DNA from: Altererythrobacter sp. XM-24bin4
Lineage (GTDB): Bacteria > Pseudomonadota > Alphaproteobacteria > Sphingomonadales > Sphingomonadaceae
Direction: 5' to 3'
Assembly (NCBI GenBank): GCA_003149575.1
Contig: QCWG01000001.1
Location: 1,928,334-1,992,333, forward strand
Length of the DNA stretch: 64,000 nt
Part shown: piece after piece, positions 4,674 to 64,000 of the stretch
How positions within the stretch are numbered: position 1 is the stretch's first letter
Layout of the letters: each line of letters opens with the position of its first letter
The notes under the pieces: model-generated
Told to the model about the DNA's origin: nothing
What the model saw: the letters and a program-made list of their open reading frames with translations, nothing else
The model's database searches: none
Program-made: the position numbers and the translations under genes

Positions 4674-6146
4674 TTATTTCTTGTTCAACATGTCTCTAAG
4701 TTCCGGCGGGAGCGTGTCGGGATCAACCGACGGCCCCTTTGGACCACCCAAGCCGGGCATGCCGCCACCCGGGCCACCGAGGCCGGGCATGGCTGCACCT
4801 AGGCCACCGCCACCAAACATCGATGCGAGGCCTTTGAGGCCACCCATCTTCTTGATTTGCTTCATCGCGCGGCTCATTTCCTTGTGCATCTTCAGAACCT
4901 TGTTCACGGTCTGCACATCGGTGCCGCTGCCTGCCGCCACGCGCTTCTTGCGTTTGGCGTTCATCAATTCGGGCCGCGCGCGCTCTTTACCGGTCATCGA
5001 ACCGATGATCGCGTCCATATGCACCAGCACCTTGTCATCCATGTCGCTCGCCGCGAGCGCTGCCTTGGCTTTCTTCATGCCAGGCATCATGCCCGCCAGC
5101 ATGCCGAGGCCACCCATATTCTGCATCTGCCGCAGCTGGGTACGCAGGTCATTCAGGTCAAACTGACCCTTTGCCATACGCTTGGCGAGTGCTTCGGCGT
5201 CTTCTTCCTTGATCGTCGCCGCAGCCTTCTCGACCAGGCTGACAACATCGCCCATGCCAAGGATGCGGTCCGCAACGCGCGAGGGATGGAATGCTTCAAT
5301 CGCGTCAAGCTTCTCGCCTGTACCGGCAAACTTGATGGGTTGTCCCGTGACGTGGCGCATGGAAAGCGCCGCACCGCCGCGTGCATCGCCATCCATACGG
5401 GTGAGGACAACGCCTGTCAGCGGCACTTCGCCGGTAAAGCTTTGCGCGACATTGACCGCGTCCTGGCCGGTCAGGCTGTCGACCACCAGCAGCACCTCGG
5501 TTGGCGCTGAAACGGCAGAAATAGCCTTCATTTCGGCCATCAGCGCTTCATCAACATGCAGCCTGCCCGCAGTATCGAGCAGCAGAACATCCACGTTCTG
5601 CAATCTGGCCGATTCCATCGCGCGGCGCGCGATATCAACCGGTTGCTGGCCCGCGACGATTGGCAAAGTTGCGATATCGGTCTGCTCACCGAGCACAGCC
5701 AGCTGTTCCTGCGCCGCCGGACGATTGACGTCGAGCGAAGCCATCAACGCTTTCTTGCCGTGCTTTTCGCGGATCAGCTTGGCCAGCTTGGCGGTAGTGG
5801 TGGTTTTACCCGAACCTTGCAGACCGACCATGATGATCACAACCGGCGGTTTGGCATCAAGATTGAGGCCCGGCGTTTCTTCCCCGCCCAGCATCTCGAC
5901 CAGCTCGTCATGAACGATCTTGACCACTTGCTGGCCCGGGGTGACCGAACGCAAAACGTCCTGACCAACGGCCTTTTCAGTGACAGCGTCGATGAAACGG
6001 CGCGCGACCGGCAAAGCGACATCGGCTTCCAGCATAGCAATGCGGACTTCGCGCATCGCATCGCGTACGTCTTGTTCCTTAAGAGCGCCCCGGCCTTTGA
6101 GCTTGTCAAAGACGCCGCCAAGGCGGTCGGACAAATTGTCAAACAT
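4674..6146 (-). CDS. ffh: Signal recognition particle protein Ffh
   Basis: 490 residues from the ATG at 6146 (MFDNLSDRLGGVFDKLKGRG). N, G and M domains are in order: P-loop GLQGSGKTTTTAKLAK near residue 105, DTAGRLHVDE, LTRMDGDARGGAAL, then the methionine-rich M domain (MGGLGMLAGMMPGMKKAKAA) and a Gly/Pro/Met-rich C-terminus. Ffh binds 4.5S RNA and targets membrane proteins to FtsY and SecYEG. It is the first gene of the minus-strand cluster. Confidence 0.97.
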   Translation of the reverse strand: MFDNLSDRLGGVFDKLKGRGALKEQDVRDAMREVRIAMLEADVALPVARRFIDAVTEKAVGQDVLRSVTPGQQVVKIVHDELVEMLGGEETPGLNLDAKPPVVIIMVGLQGSGKTTTTAKLAKLIREKHGKKALMASLDVNRPAAQEQLAVLGEQTDIATLPIVAGQQPVDIARRAMESARLQNVDVLLLDTAGRLHVDEALMAEMKAISAVSAPTEVLLVVDSLTGQDAVNVAQSFTGEVPLTGVVLTRMDGDARGGAALSMRHVTGQPIKFAGTGEKLDAIEAFHPSRVADRILGMGDVVSLVEKAAATIKEEDAEALAKRMAKGQFDLNDLRTQLRQMQNMGGLGMLAGMMPGMKKAKAALAASDMDDKVLVHMDAIIGSMTGKERARPELMNAKRKKRVAAGSGTDVQTVNKVLKMHKEMSRAMKQIKKMGGLKGLASMFGGGGLGAAMPGLGGPGGGMPGLGGPKGPSVDPDTLPPELRDMLNKK

Positions 6147-6263
6147 CGTCTTCAACTCCAAGTCTCGAAGCTCGAAAGCTTCGCAAATGCGAAAAACGCC
6201 GGCGGACGAGAACTCGTCGGCCAGCGTGCGAATCTCATATGAAATCCGACTTTATCAGGTGAC

Positions 6264-6339
<76 letters not shown>

Positions 6340-6417
6340 GCGCCAGTCATGTTGCAGGCTCTTCGACCTGCAGGGAGCGCGCGTTAAACACGCCTTCCGA
6401 GTTATGCAACGATAATC

Positions 6418-6756
6418 TTAGCTATCGTCTTCTTCGTCGTCGCCCTTGCCCTTGCTTACGCCAAGGTCATCGTCACCGCCGAGATCAACATCATTGTCTG
6501 GCGAATCTTCTGCGTCATCGATGTTTTCCAGATCCTTCAGATCATCATCATCGTCGCCGCTCAGATCGCTATCCGGTTCTACGTCCTTCTTCTTCTCGTC
6601 TTCGAACGGAATCGGCTGCTTCGGTTTGAGAACCGGCTCAGGATGCCATTCTTCACCGCATTCGATGCAGGTCGCAGGGTCATCCTTGCCCAGATCGTAA
6701 AAACGTTCCCCGCATTTAGGGCAGGAACGCTTAGTGCCCCATTCTGGCTTAGCCAT
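6418..6756 (-). CDS. TIGR02300-type (FYDLN acid domain) protein
   Basis: 112 residues. The N-terminus has a two-knuckle zinc ribbon (CPKCGERFYDLG and CIECGEEWHPEP) including the FYDLG signature. The C-terminal two thirds are a highly acidic Asp/Glu tail. The family is widespread in alphaproteobacteria and has no assigned function. It stands alone between tRNA-Ala and the divergent aroA. Confidence 0.88.
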   Translation of the reverse strand: MAKPEWGTKRSCPKCGERFYDLGKDDPATCIECGEEWHPEPVLKPKQPIPFEDEKKKDVEPDSDLSGDDDDDLKDLENIDDAEDSPDNDVDLGGDDDLGVSKGKGDDEEDDS

Positions 6757-6917
6757 ATCTTCGTATTCCTTTGGTCGGGCCTGCTGTTCTTGCTAAATCA
6801 GGCCGCGCGAAAAATTCTTTTTCTTTATGGGTAGTAATTCAGCCCGAATCAAGAGCGCGGCGCCTTGCCATAGGGCCATGCGCCTGTCAAAATCCGCGCT
6901 GCTAAAATCTCAGCTCA

Positions 6918-8246
<1,329 letters not shown>

Positions 8247-61121: not shown

Positions 61122-61789
61122 AAAAGAAGCACTCCCTGCTCACGCGTATCTGGCACTGGCTCAATACGCTATGTGTGATTGTGTTGTTTATGAGCGGTCT
61201 CGGCATCTCCAACGCGCACAGATACCTCTATTGGGGTGATGCGGGGTCGCAGCCGTCAGAGGCGTGGACCGCAGTCATCCGGTTCCCGGATTGGGCGACA
61301 CTTCCGCAGCGCTATGATCTGGCCGAATCGCGCGATTGGCACGTGCTGTTTTCATGGCCTTTTGCCGTCGGATTGCTAGTGTTCTGGATCGCGATGCTGA
61401 TCGGCGGGCATTTCTGGCGTGACCTGCGAACACGCCAGGAAGAATGGAAACCAGCTGCAATATGGGCTGATGTTGTCAAACACGCGAAGCTCGATTTCAC
61501 CCATGTTGGCGCGAAATACAGCTTTCTGCAAAAGCTGACTTACGGGATCGTACTGGTTGTCTTGCTGCCCGTTATGGTTTTCACCGGTCTTGCAATCAGC
61601 CCCGGTTTCGAGCCGGCCGCGCCGTGGCTGGTGGATATGTTCGGGGGGCGGCAAAGCGCCCGGTCGATCCACTTTCTTGCTGCTTGGGCGCTGTTCGCAT
61701 TCTTTGTCGTTCACATCCTGCTCGTGCTGCTTTCCGGCCCTGCGAAGCAAATGCGCGACATGATCACCGGAGGCGTGGATGAAACGTAG
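61118..61789 (+). CDS. Cytochrome b561/b6-type membrane protein
   Basis: 223 residues with four or five membrane helices. His residues in LLTRIWHWLNTLCVIVLFMS, SRDWHVLFSWPFAVGLLVFW and ARSIHFLAAWALFAFFVVHI are suitable heme ligands. This is the cytochrome b subunit seen with periplasmic molybdoenzymes and hydrogenases. It overlaps the molybdopterin gene by 11 bases, so it likely takes electrons from or gives them to that enzyme. Confidence 0.83.
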   Translation: MKKKHSLLTRIWHWLNTLCVIVLFMSGLGISNAHRYLYWGDAGSQPSEAWTAVIRFPDWATLPQRYDLAESRDWHVLFSWPFAVGLLVFWIAMLIGGHFWRDLRTRQEEWKPAAIWADVVKHAKLDFTHVGAKYSFLQKLTYGIVLVVLLPVMVFTGLAISPGFEPAAPWLVDMFGGRQSARSIHFLAAWALFAFFVVHILLVLLSGPAKQMRDMITGGVDET

Positions 61790-62519
61790 AACAGCCCTCG
61801 TTGGCCTTGGTGCGTTATTCGCCGGGGCATGCTCGAAAATCTCTGAAAGCCGTGCGGGCCAATCGCTGTTCGACATGGCGGAAAACTGGCATTTGAAGGC
61901 GCATCGCGCGCTGGCAAACCGTCAGGCTCTTGCTCCTGAATTTGCCAAGTCCGATATTTCTCCGGTCTTTAAGGGCAATGGTTCGATAACGGTCGACAGT
62001 GACATCTATCGCGATCAGCTGAGCAAAGGCTTCCCCGATTGGCGTCTGCGGATCGGCGGATTGGTCAAGAACGAGATGTCATTCTCGCTCGAAAACCTTC
62101 GCACCCTGCCCCAGCGGACACAGATTACCCGGCACGATTGTGTCGAAGGTTGGAGTGCGATCGGGGAATGGACCGGGCCGCAGCTATCGTTGCTGCTTGA
62201 CGCCGCCGAAGTGCTTCCGGCAGCCAACTTCATTGTCTTCTATTGCGCGGATATTCTCTACGGCAAGCGCTATTACGAGAGCGTCGATATGGTCGATGCC
62301 TACCATCCGCAGACAATCGTGGCGCATGCACTCAATGGCGAGCCGCTACCGGAAAAGAACGGCGCTCCGTTGCGGATGCGCATTGAACGTCAACTTGGCT
62401 ACAAGCATCCCAAGTATCTTACCGGCATCGAAGCGGTAGCCAGCCTTGACGATATCGAAGGCGGCAAAGGCGGCTTCTGGGAAGATAACTACGGATATCA
62501 GTGGTATGCCGGGATGTGA
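61779..62519 (+). CDS. Sulfite oxidase-like molybdopterin oxidoreductase
   Basis: 246 residues. The N-terminus MKRRTALVGLGALFAGAC has a twin-arginine pair followed by a lipobox-like LFAGAC, suggesting a Tat-exported lipoprotein. The molybdopterin domain has TRHDCVEGWSAIGEWTGPQL, where the Cys should ligate molybdenum, and LNGEPLPEKNGAPLRMRIER. It resembles YedY/MsrP and sulfite oxidase-type enzymes, but the substrate is not evident. The cytochrome b gene next door is its probable membrane partner. Confidence 0.85.
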   Translation: MKRRTALVGLGALFAGACSKISESRAGQSLFDMAENWHLKAHRALANRQALAPEFAKSDISPVFKGNGSITVDSDIYRDQLSKGFPDWRLRIGGLVKNEMSFSLENLRTLPQRTQITRHDCVEGWSAIGEWTGPQLSLLLDAAEVLPAANFIVFYCADILYGKRYYESVDMVDAYHPQTIVAHALNGEPLPEKNGAPLRMRIERQLGYKHPKYLTGIEAVASLDDIEGGKGGFWEDNYGYQWYAGM

Positions 62520-62556
62520 TTGATCCCTATTTGGCGGGCTTCCGTCCGAGATAGTG

Positions 62557-63059
62557 CTAAATCACTAGCGGTGCGCGCATCATTTCATCCGGCGTGCCGG
62601 AAAAAATTACCCGCCCTTCATCCAGTACATATGCACGCTCAATCAGGCTGAGCATTTCGGGCACGTTCTGATCGGTGAGCAAGATACCAATGCCGCGCGT
62701 CCGCATCTCGCGGATCAGTTGCTTGATGCTGGCGATGGTAAGCGGATCAATTCCCGAGAATGGTTCATCGAGCAGCATAATCGCCGGATCAAGCGCGAGC
62801 GCCTTAGCCACTTCGCATCGCCGCCTTTCACCGCCCGAAAGGGAATTGGCCGACGCCTTGCGCAGCCGGGCAAGATCGAGCGACTCAAGAATCTCCTCGA
62901 GTTTGGCGTCCCGTTGCTCGCGCACGGGTTCGACTATTTCCAGCATGGACAGGATGTTCTGCTCGACGGTAAGTCCACGAAAGATCGATGGTTGCTCGGG
63001 CAAATACGCAAGTCCCAGCATCGCCCGACGGTAAAACGGCAATGCCGTCACGTCCGCGC
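62557..63059 (-). pseudogene. lptB: LptB ATPase, C-terminal remnant lacking Walker A
   Basis: The frame keeps the C-terminal ~168 residues of LptB: RRAMLGLAYLPEQPSIFRGL with the Q-loop, NSLSGGERRRCEVAKALALD signature, IMLLDEPFSGIDPLTIASIK Walker B and GILLTDQNVPEMLSLIERAY, where the H-loop histidine is Gln. Upstream of ADVTALPFYRR the homology stops at about 63059, so the N-terminal ~90 residues including Walker A are absent. LptB drives LPS transport with LptFG and is normally essential, so an intact copy must lie elsewhere or the join is artefactual. Confidence 0.75.
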
Positions 63060-63486
63060 TGGCAAGCCTGGCTTCACCGATGCCTGGACGCGCAAATACA
63101 TCTTTCCTGGCGGCTACATTCCGGCACTGTCCGAACTTGTCTCTGAAAGCGAGAAGGCCGGCTGGCAGATTATGGATGTGGAGGCGATGCGCTTCCACTA
63201 CTCCTACACGCTTGAGGAATGGTACAAACGCACCGTCATGCACCGCGAGGAAATCACGGAGATGTCTGACGAGACGTTTTACCGCATGTGGTTGTTCTAC
63301 CTCGCCGGCGCAGAGCAAAGCCTCCGTAATGGCACGATGGTGAACTGGCAAATCCAGTATGTGAAAGATCGCGCAGCGGTGCCGATGACCCGCGAGTATA
63401 TAGTCGAGGAGTCGGCCCGTTTGCGCGAGAAAGGCGAAGTACCCAAATGGCGCTTCGATCCGGAGTTAAAGGAAGCGGCAGAGTAG
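63059..63486 (+). pseudogene. Cyclopropane-fatty-acid synthase-like methyltransferase, C-terminal remnant
   Basis: From about 63059 the frame reads GKPGFTDAWTRKYIFPGGYI, PALSELVSESEKAGWQIMDV, EAMRFHYSYTLEEWYKRTVM and FYRMWLFYLAGAEQSLRNGT to the stop at 63486, the C-terminal half of the SAM-dependent cyclopropane synthase family. The SAM-binding N-terminal part is missing. The upstream part of the open frame (from 62719) is antisense to lptB and not coding. It joins the lptB remnant head to head. Confidence 0.75.
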
Positions 63487-63492
63487 CCACCC

Positions 63493-64000
63493 TCACCCCT
63501 TTGGCGGGCGCGGAAACAGCTTTGGCGTGTTCTTGCGATAATTCTGATAATCCGGATCATCCCCCCAGCGTTCTTTGGCGATGCCATCGAGCAGGTTGAT
63601 CCCGCTCACCCGCGTCAGCAGCAGGAAGACGAAAATGGGCGATATCACCGCCAGCCATGACCAGCCTGAAAGCAGCGGCATCGCAATCACAAGAATGCCG
63701 GTCCACAGCGTGATCTCTCCGAAATAGTTCGGATGTTGAGACCATGCCCACAGGCCGCTCTGGATGAATTTGCCCTTGTTCGCCGGATCTTTCTTGAACT
63801 GCCGTTTCTGGTTATCCGCGACCACTTCCAAGCCGAATCCGATCACCCAGATCGCTGCGCCCACCCAGAAGAATAGTCCCAGCGGCGCGCTTTCTTGCTC
63901 TGTGATAATAACCAGTGCTGCGGACGCGGTGAAGATCACCCACACCGCTTGCAATGTCCATGCAACCAGGAAACGCGGAGGATTTACCTTGATCTTCTCG
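63493..64000 (-). CDS. DUF1295 membrane protein (partial)
   Basis: The frame runs to the right edge without a start. It has several membrane helices (FFWVGAAIWVIGFGLEVVAD, ILVIAMPLLSGWSWLAVISP) and the C-terminal DUF1295 motif (FIQSGLWAWSQHPNYFGEIT, RVSGINLLDGIAKERWGDDP). The family is related to steroid 5-alpha reductases and ICMT-type methyltransferases and often lies near cyclopropane-synthase-like genes, as here. Confidence 0.85.
   Translation of the reverse strand, partial: EKIKVNPPRFLVAWTLQAVWVIFTASAALVIITEQESAPLGLFFWVGAAIWVIGFGLEVVADNQKRQFKKDPANKGKFIQSGLWAWSQHPNYFGEITLWTGILVIAMPLLSGWSWLAVISPIFVFLLLTRVSGINLLDGIAKERWGDDPDYQNYRKNTPKLFPRPPKG

Follow-up and report, generated by a model that had tools for sequence, protein, structure and literature searches.

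Head-to-head relics of an lptB-like paralogue and a cyclopropane-fatty-acid synthase gene in Altererythrobacter sp. XM-24bin4, most probably left by one deletion

The closest described counterparts of the locus studied here are pseudogene remnants born of deletions, which it resembles in having two truncated genes that are attributable to one deletion and have lost their catalytic parts, nonsense mutations that arose afterwards in individual strains, and intact orthologues in relatives. It is ordinary bacterial gene loss, and its only unusual trait is that both breakpoints lie within divergent genes, so that the stumps stand head to head. The gene on one side resembles that for LptB, the LPS export ATPase (TIGR04406), in which the H-loop histidine is essential in Escherichia coli (H195; PMC6703430). 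Intact relatives of the truncated gene pass the curated TIGR04406 cut-off of 240 bits, with scores of 298 and 304 bits, but differ from core LptB, to which they are 55-57% identical, in having LPEQ rather than LPQE in the Q-loop region and TDQNV rather than TDHNV at the H-loop. The copy studied here additionally lacks Walker A and scores below the cut-off. The gene on the other side corresponds to cyclopropane-fatty-acyl-phospholipid (CFA) synthase (PF02353; NF053839, CPFASynBruc). Its C-terminal third is retained and is 88-90% identical in protein sequence to intact relatives, but everything up to residue ~297 is gone, and the SAM-binding domain with it.

The junction and its two stumps

In the 64,000-nucleotide stretch of DNA that we analysed (the window), a minus-strand lptB-like stretch and a plus-strand CFA stretch meet head to head near position 63067. 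The former ends there, represents three quarters of LptB on the C-terminal side and matches TIGR04406 over profile positions 52-225 of 239 (203 bits); the latter starts there and matches NF053839 over positions 281-406 of 410 and PF02353 over positions 182-272 of 273. The N-terminal part is missing from both, cut at one shared point, and these matches bear out the initial annotation in its reading of an lptB and a methyltransferase gene truncated head to head. That both had lost their N-terminal halves was right as to the end affected and wrong as to the extent, since the lptB-like protein has lost ~27% of its length and CFA synthase 68%. The features of the region are as follows.

61779..62519, plus strand: molybdopterin-domain oxidoreductase (PF00174), intact flank and synteny anchor on the lptB side
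62527..63067, minus strand: relic of the lptB-like paralogue (TIGR04406), residues ~66-244 of the intact protein, without Walker A
63054..63068, no strand: deletion junction; 63054-63063 similar in both parents, 63064-63067 lptB-derived, CFA-derived from 63067/63068
63067..63486, plus strand: relic of the cyclopropane-fatty-acid synthase gene (NF053839), residues ~298-436 of 436, without the SAM-binding methyltransferase core
63493..64000, minus strand: DUF1295 gene (PF06966), intact flank extending past the window and synteny anchor on the CFA side

Base-by-base comparison with relatives (G080, G050, G011, G007 and G100 for the lptB side; G050, G011, G100, G115, G014, G007 and G129 for the CFA side) placed the crossover at ~63067/63068 within an ambiguous stretch, 63054-63068. 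The single shared point proposed earlier is upheld, while its position, ~63059, has to be moved. The closest undeleted lptB side, that of G080, has 92% nucleotide identity over 510 bp and matches the window up to 63067; from 63067/63068 onward, the window is matched by the CFA sides of several relatives. Ten bases just before the crossover, 63054-63063 (CCGCGCYGGC), are similar in both parents. The AAGC that follows them is lptB-like, so that at most 1-2 bases are common to both sides at the crossover itself, and clean microhomology at that point was rejected on these grounds. It is plausible that the CCGCGCYGGC similarity beside the crossover helped the deletion.

The undeleted locus and the extent of the loss

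Relatives were searched with each half, and both full genes were found at one locus in same-genus genomes. Three close relatives (G050, G011 and G007) carry an intact, collinear, undeleted locus which reads, in window orientation, phzF-like (-), SDR (+), cytochrome b561 (+), molybdopterin oxidoreductase (+), lptB-like (-), DUF1801 (-) and CFA (+); in G050, DUF1295 (-) follows CFA. The window runs from phzF (-) through SDR (+), cytochrome b561 (+) and molybdopterin oxidoreductase (+) to the lptB-like stump (-), after which come the CFA stump (+) and DUF1295 (-). The oxidoreductase likewise lies beside the lptB-like gene in G050, G011, G007, G080 and G100, and DUF1295, whose full open reading frame (ORF) is seen in L079, likewise adjoins CFA in G050. 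A single deletion between divergent genes had been proposed for the window, and the ancestor which it predicts is thus found in three genomes, with the same neighbours and with one small gene in addition between the two.

Mapping of both sides shows that the segment absent from the window measures 1,658 bp in G050 coordinates and 1,660 bp in G011 coordinates. It takes in all of DUF1801, CFA up to residue ~297 of 436 and the lptB-like protein up to residue ~65 of 244; Walker A and the SAM-binding core of CFA synthase (residues 186-292 of the intact protein) both fall inside it. The CFA N-terminus and DUF1801 are missing altogether from the genome carrying the window (G000) and from another genome of its species (G056), and a further lptB-like N-terminus was not found in G000. 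For the methyltransferase N-terminus, for which a genome-wide search had been suggested, this absence is what a deletion leads one to expect. The sister genome G080 (Altererythrobacter sp. SS_bin_45, identical to public record JABDKI010000196.1) has an undeleted lptB-like gene, followed immediately by DUF1801 and then by the end of the contig. The region is variable within the genus, since G014, G129 and G100 have a somewhat different arrangement: the lptB-like gene lies on the opposite flank of CFA, or a match to DUF1801 is missing.

Based on these comparisons, we are highly confident that one deletion of ~1,660 bp produced a recent scar with two relic pseudogenes. The event would have fused the interiors of the minus-strand lptB-like paralogue and the plus-strand CFA gene, and would have removed the intervening DUF1801 gene at the same time. 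It is placed in the species ancestor, after the split from the G080 lineage and before that of G000 and G056, because G080 keeps the lptB-like gene and DUF1801 while G000 and G056 have the same junction. The original promoter and start are missing from both stumps, which, lacking Walker A in one case and the SAM-binding core in the other, are presumably non-functional pseudogenes. We infer a single event rather than two; independent truncations that happened to meet at one point would be a less parsimonious account.

Decay of the stumps and reality of the junction

The junction was sought among 114 same-genus genomes, and G056, a single contig of 2.3 Mb, was the match of the same species. The full 930 bp of the region align with it at 98%, with no difference from the window over 63000-63110. 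Each of the two genomes carries a nonsense codon in a different stump. In G000, the lptB-like stump has a strain-specific one at 62557-62559 (the difference being at 62559), while in G056 this frame continues to the inherited stop at 62527-62529; in G056, the CFA stump has a nonsense codon at window position 63201. No nonsense mutations were found in neighbouring genes in the G000/G056 comparison. Each strain has gained its own nonsense mutation, one per stump, after the deletion. Substitution counts in the stumps are not above those of neighbouring intact genes, either between G000 and G056 or on the stem relative to G080; in both comparisons the changes are too few to tell decay from constraint. 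The case for decay accordingly rests on the nonsense mutations and missing domains and not on relaxed Ka/Ks, and the unremarkable counts fit a recent event, which the deletion probably is.

Two ORFs of 264 and 255 aa span the junction in G000, each a genuine stump that reads on into its partner gene's antisense strand. A natural, compact gene pair, in which either the shortened proteins or these longer products are made and used, would agree with two facts: in G000 both frames run open through the junction (302 and 305 codons from stop to stop), and the substitution pattern is no worse than that of the neighbours. We nevertheless consider it highly improbable: the CFA frame is stopped in G056 and the lptB-like frame is stopped early in G000, and neither Walker A nor the SAM-binding core is left. 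Moreover, what the 264-aa ORF adds at its N-terminus is the CFA antisense frame, already an ORF of 434 aa in G014, an intact relative, so that the extensions do not speak for a new gene. We infer that the stumps yield no useful translation product. More improbable still is a role for the lptB-like stump, which retains the signature motif, a Walker B motif and the C-terminal part: it would have to be produced to this day and would modulate core LptB2FG, for instance through mixed dimers.

An assembly, binning or cloning artefact linking two distant loci, as the initial annotation had considered, might be suspected in G000, a draft of 12 contigs. The join, however, is internal to its 2.29 Mb contig, the missing parts are on no other contig of G000, and in relatives both halves belong to one locus with the same outer neighbours. 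With the same junction present in single-contig G056, an artefact is practically excluded. The exact 30-base junction had no match in genome_contigs, a collection that may not include the genome of the window or those closest to it. Just past the window, beyond a window-equivalent position of ~65000, the alignment of G000 and G056 ends (L079 vs L111). In G000 that stretch holds a cluster of CusA/CusB-like RND efflux and outer-membrane-factor genes, which G056 does not have at that place, a difference that probably reflects a genomic island or rearrangement.

The canonical lptB, its paralogue and the loss of CFA synthase

A complete second gene lies directly beside rpoN (G000:C1:737276-737990) and is ~54% identical to the stump. 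It scores 358 bits against TIGR04406 and has standard Walker A, Q-loop and H-loop motifs, by which we identify it as the canonical, intact lptB; of the three escapes from LptB essentiality that the earlier reading offered, a second copy is the correct one. The truncated gene, judged by sequence, is a paralogue and not the essential gene, and its earlier designation as lptB holds for homology only. Some sphingolipid formers lack LPS, among them Sphingomonas koreensis (PMC11324152), but with a canonical lptB complete in all three motifs, the view that sphingolipids, in taking the place of LPS, led this lineage to lose lptB itself has virtually no probability left. Loss of the paralogue needs no special sphingolipid explanation.

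Among the same-genus relatives searched, 5 of 24 have an lptB-like paralogue besides the core gene. Members of the paralogue group (L112:3189-3920, L114:8500-9213, L074:7767-8531, L077:8440-9159, L145:1416-2237 and others) have a Walker A of the form GxDGAGK[TS], LPEQ for LPQE at the Q-loop, and Gln (in one case Leu) for the H-loop His. In the window copy Walker A is deleted, and the H-loop position is Gln throughout the paralogue group sampled. A 59-sequence tree set Gln-bearing and core His-bearing sequences cleanly apart with support of 100/98, on a sampling biased by the choice of genome_contigs Gln rows by motif. No permease gene was seen adjoining the paralogue. In other sphingomonads (L077:7324-8136, L145:973-1413, L145:2237-3898), it adjoins stress-type genes, for a universal stress protein, DUF2267 and a beta-CASP nuclease, and not CFA. 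Our literature search found no paper describing an alphaproteobacterial lptB paralogue.

Of the 41 genomes searched, 31 match the C-terminal part of CFA synthase well at least once, while neither G000 nor G056 has another CFA match at an E value of 1e-5 or better. One CFA gene is seen in G050 and none intact in the window species; some relatives have two adjacent CFA genes, ~50% identical to each other (L074:4666-5649 and 5918-7225). Literature on CFA loss in Erythrobacter was sought, and none was found. By these matches, the species has lost its only detectable CFA gene, and cyclopropane-fatty-acid synthesis by the usual enzyme is predicted to be absent from it.

Long ORFs across a deletion scar, as seen here, can be mere antisense frames. 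The apparent paradox of a broken essential gene is resolved, the broken gene being a dispensable paralogue, and the locus provides a dated case of genes being lost from an erythrobacterial lineage with small genomes.
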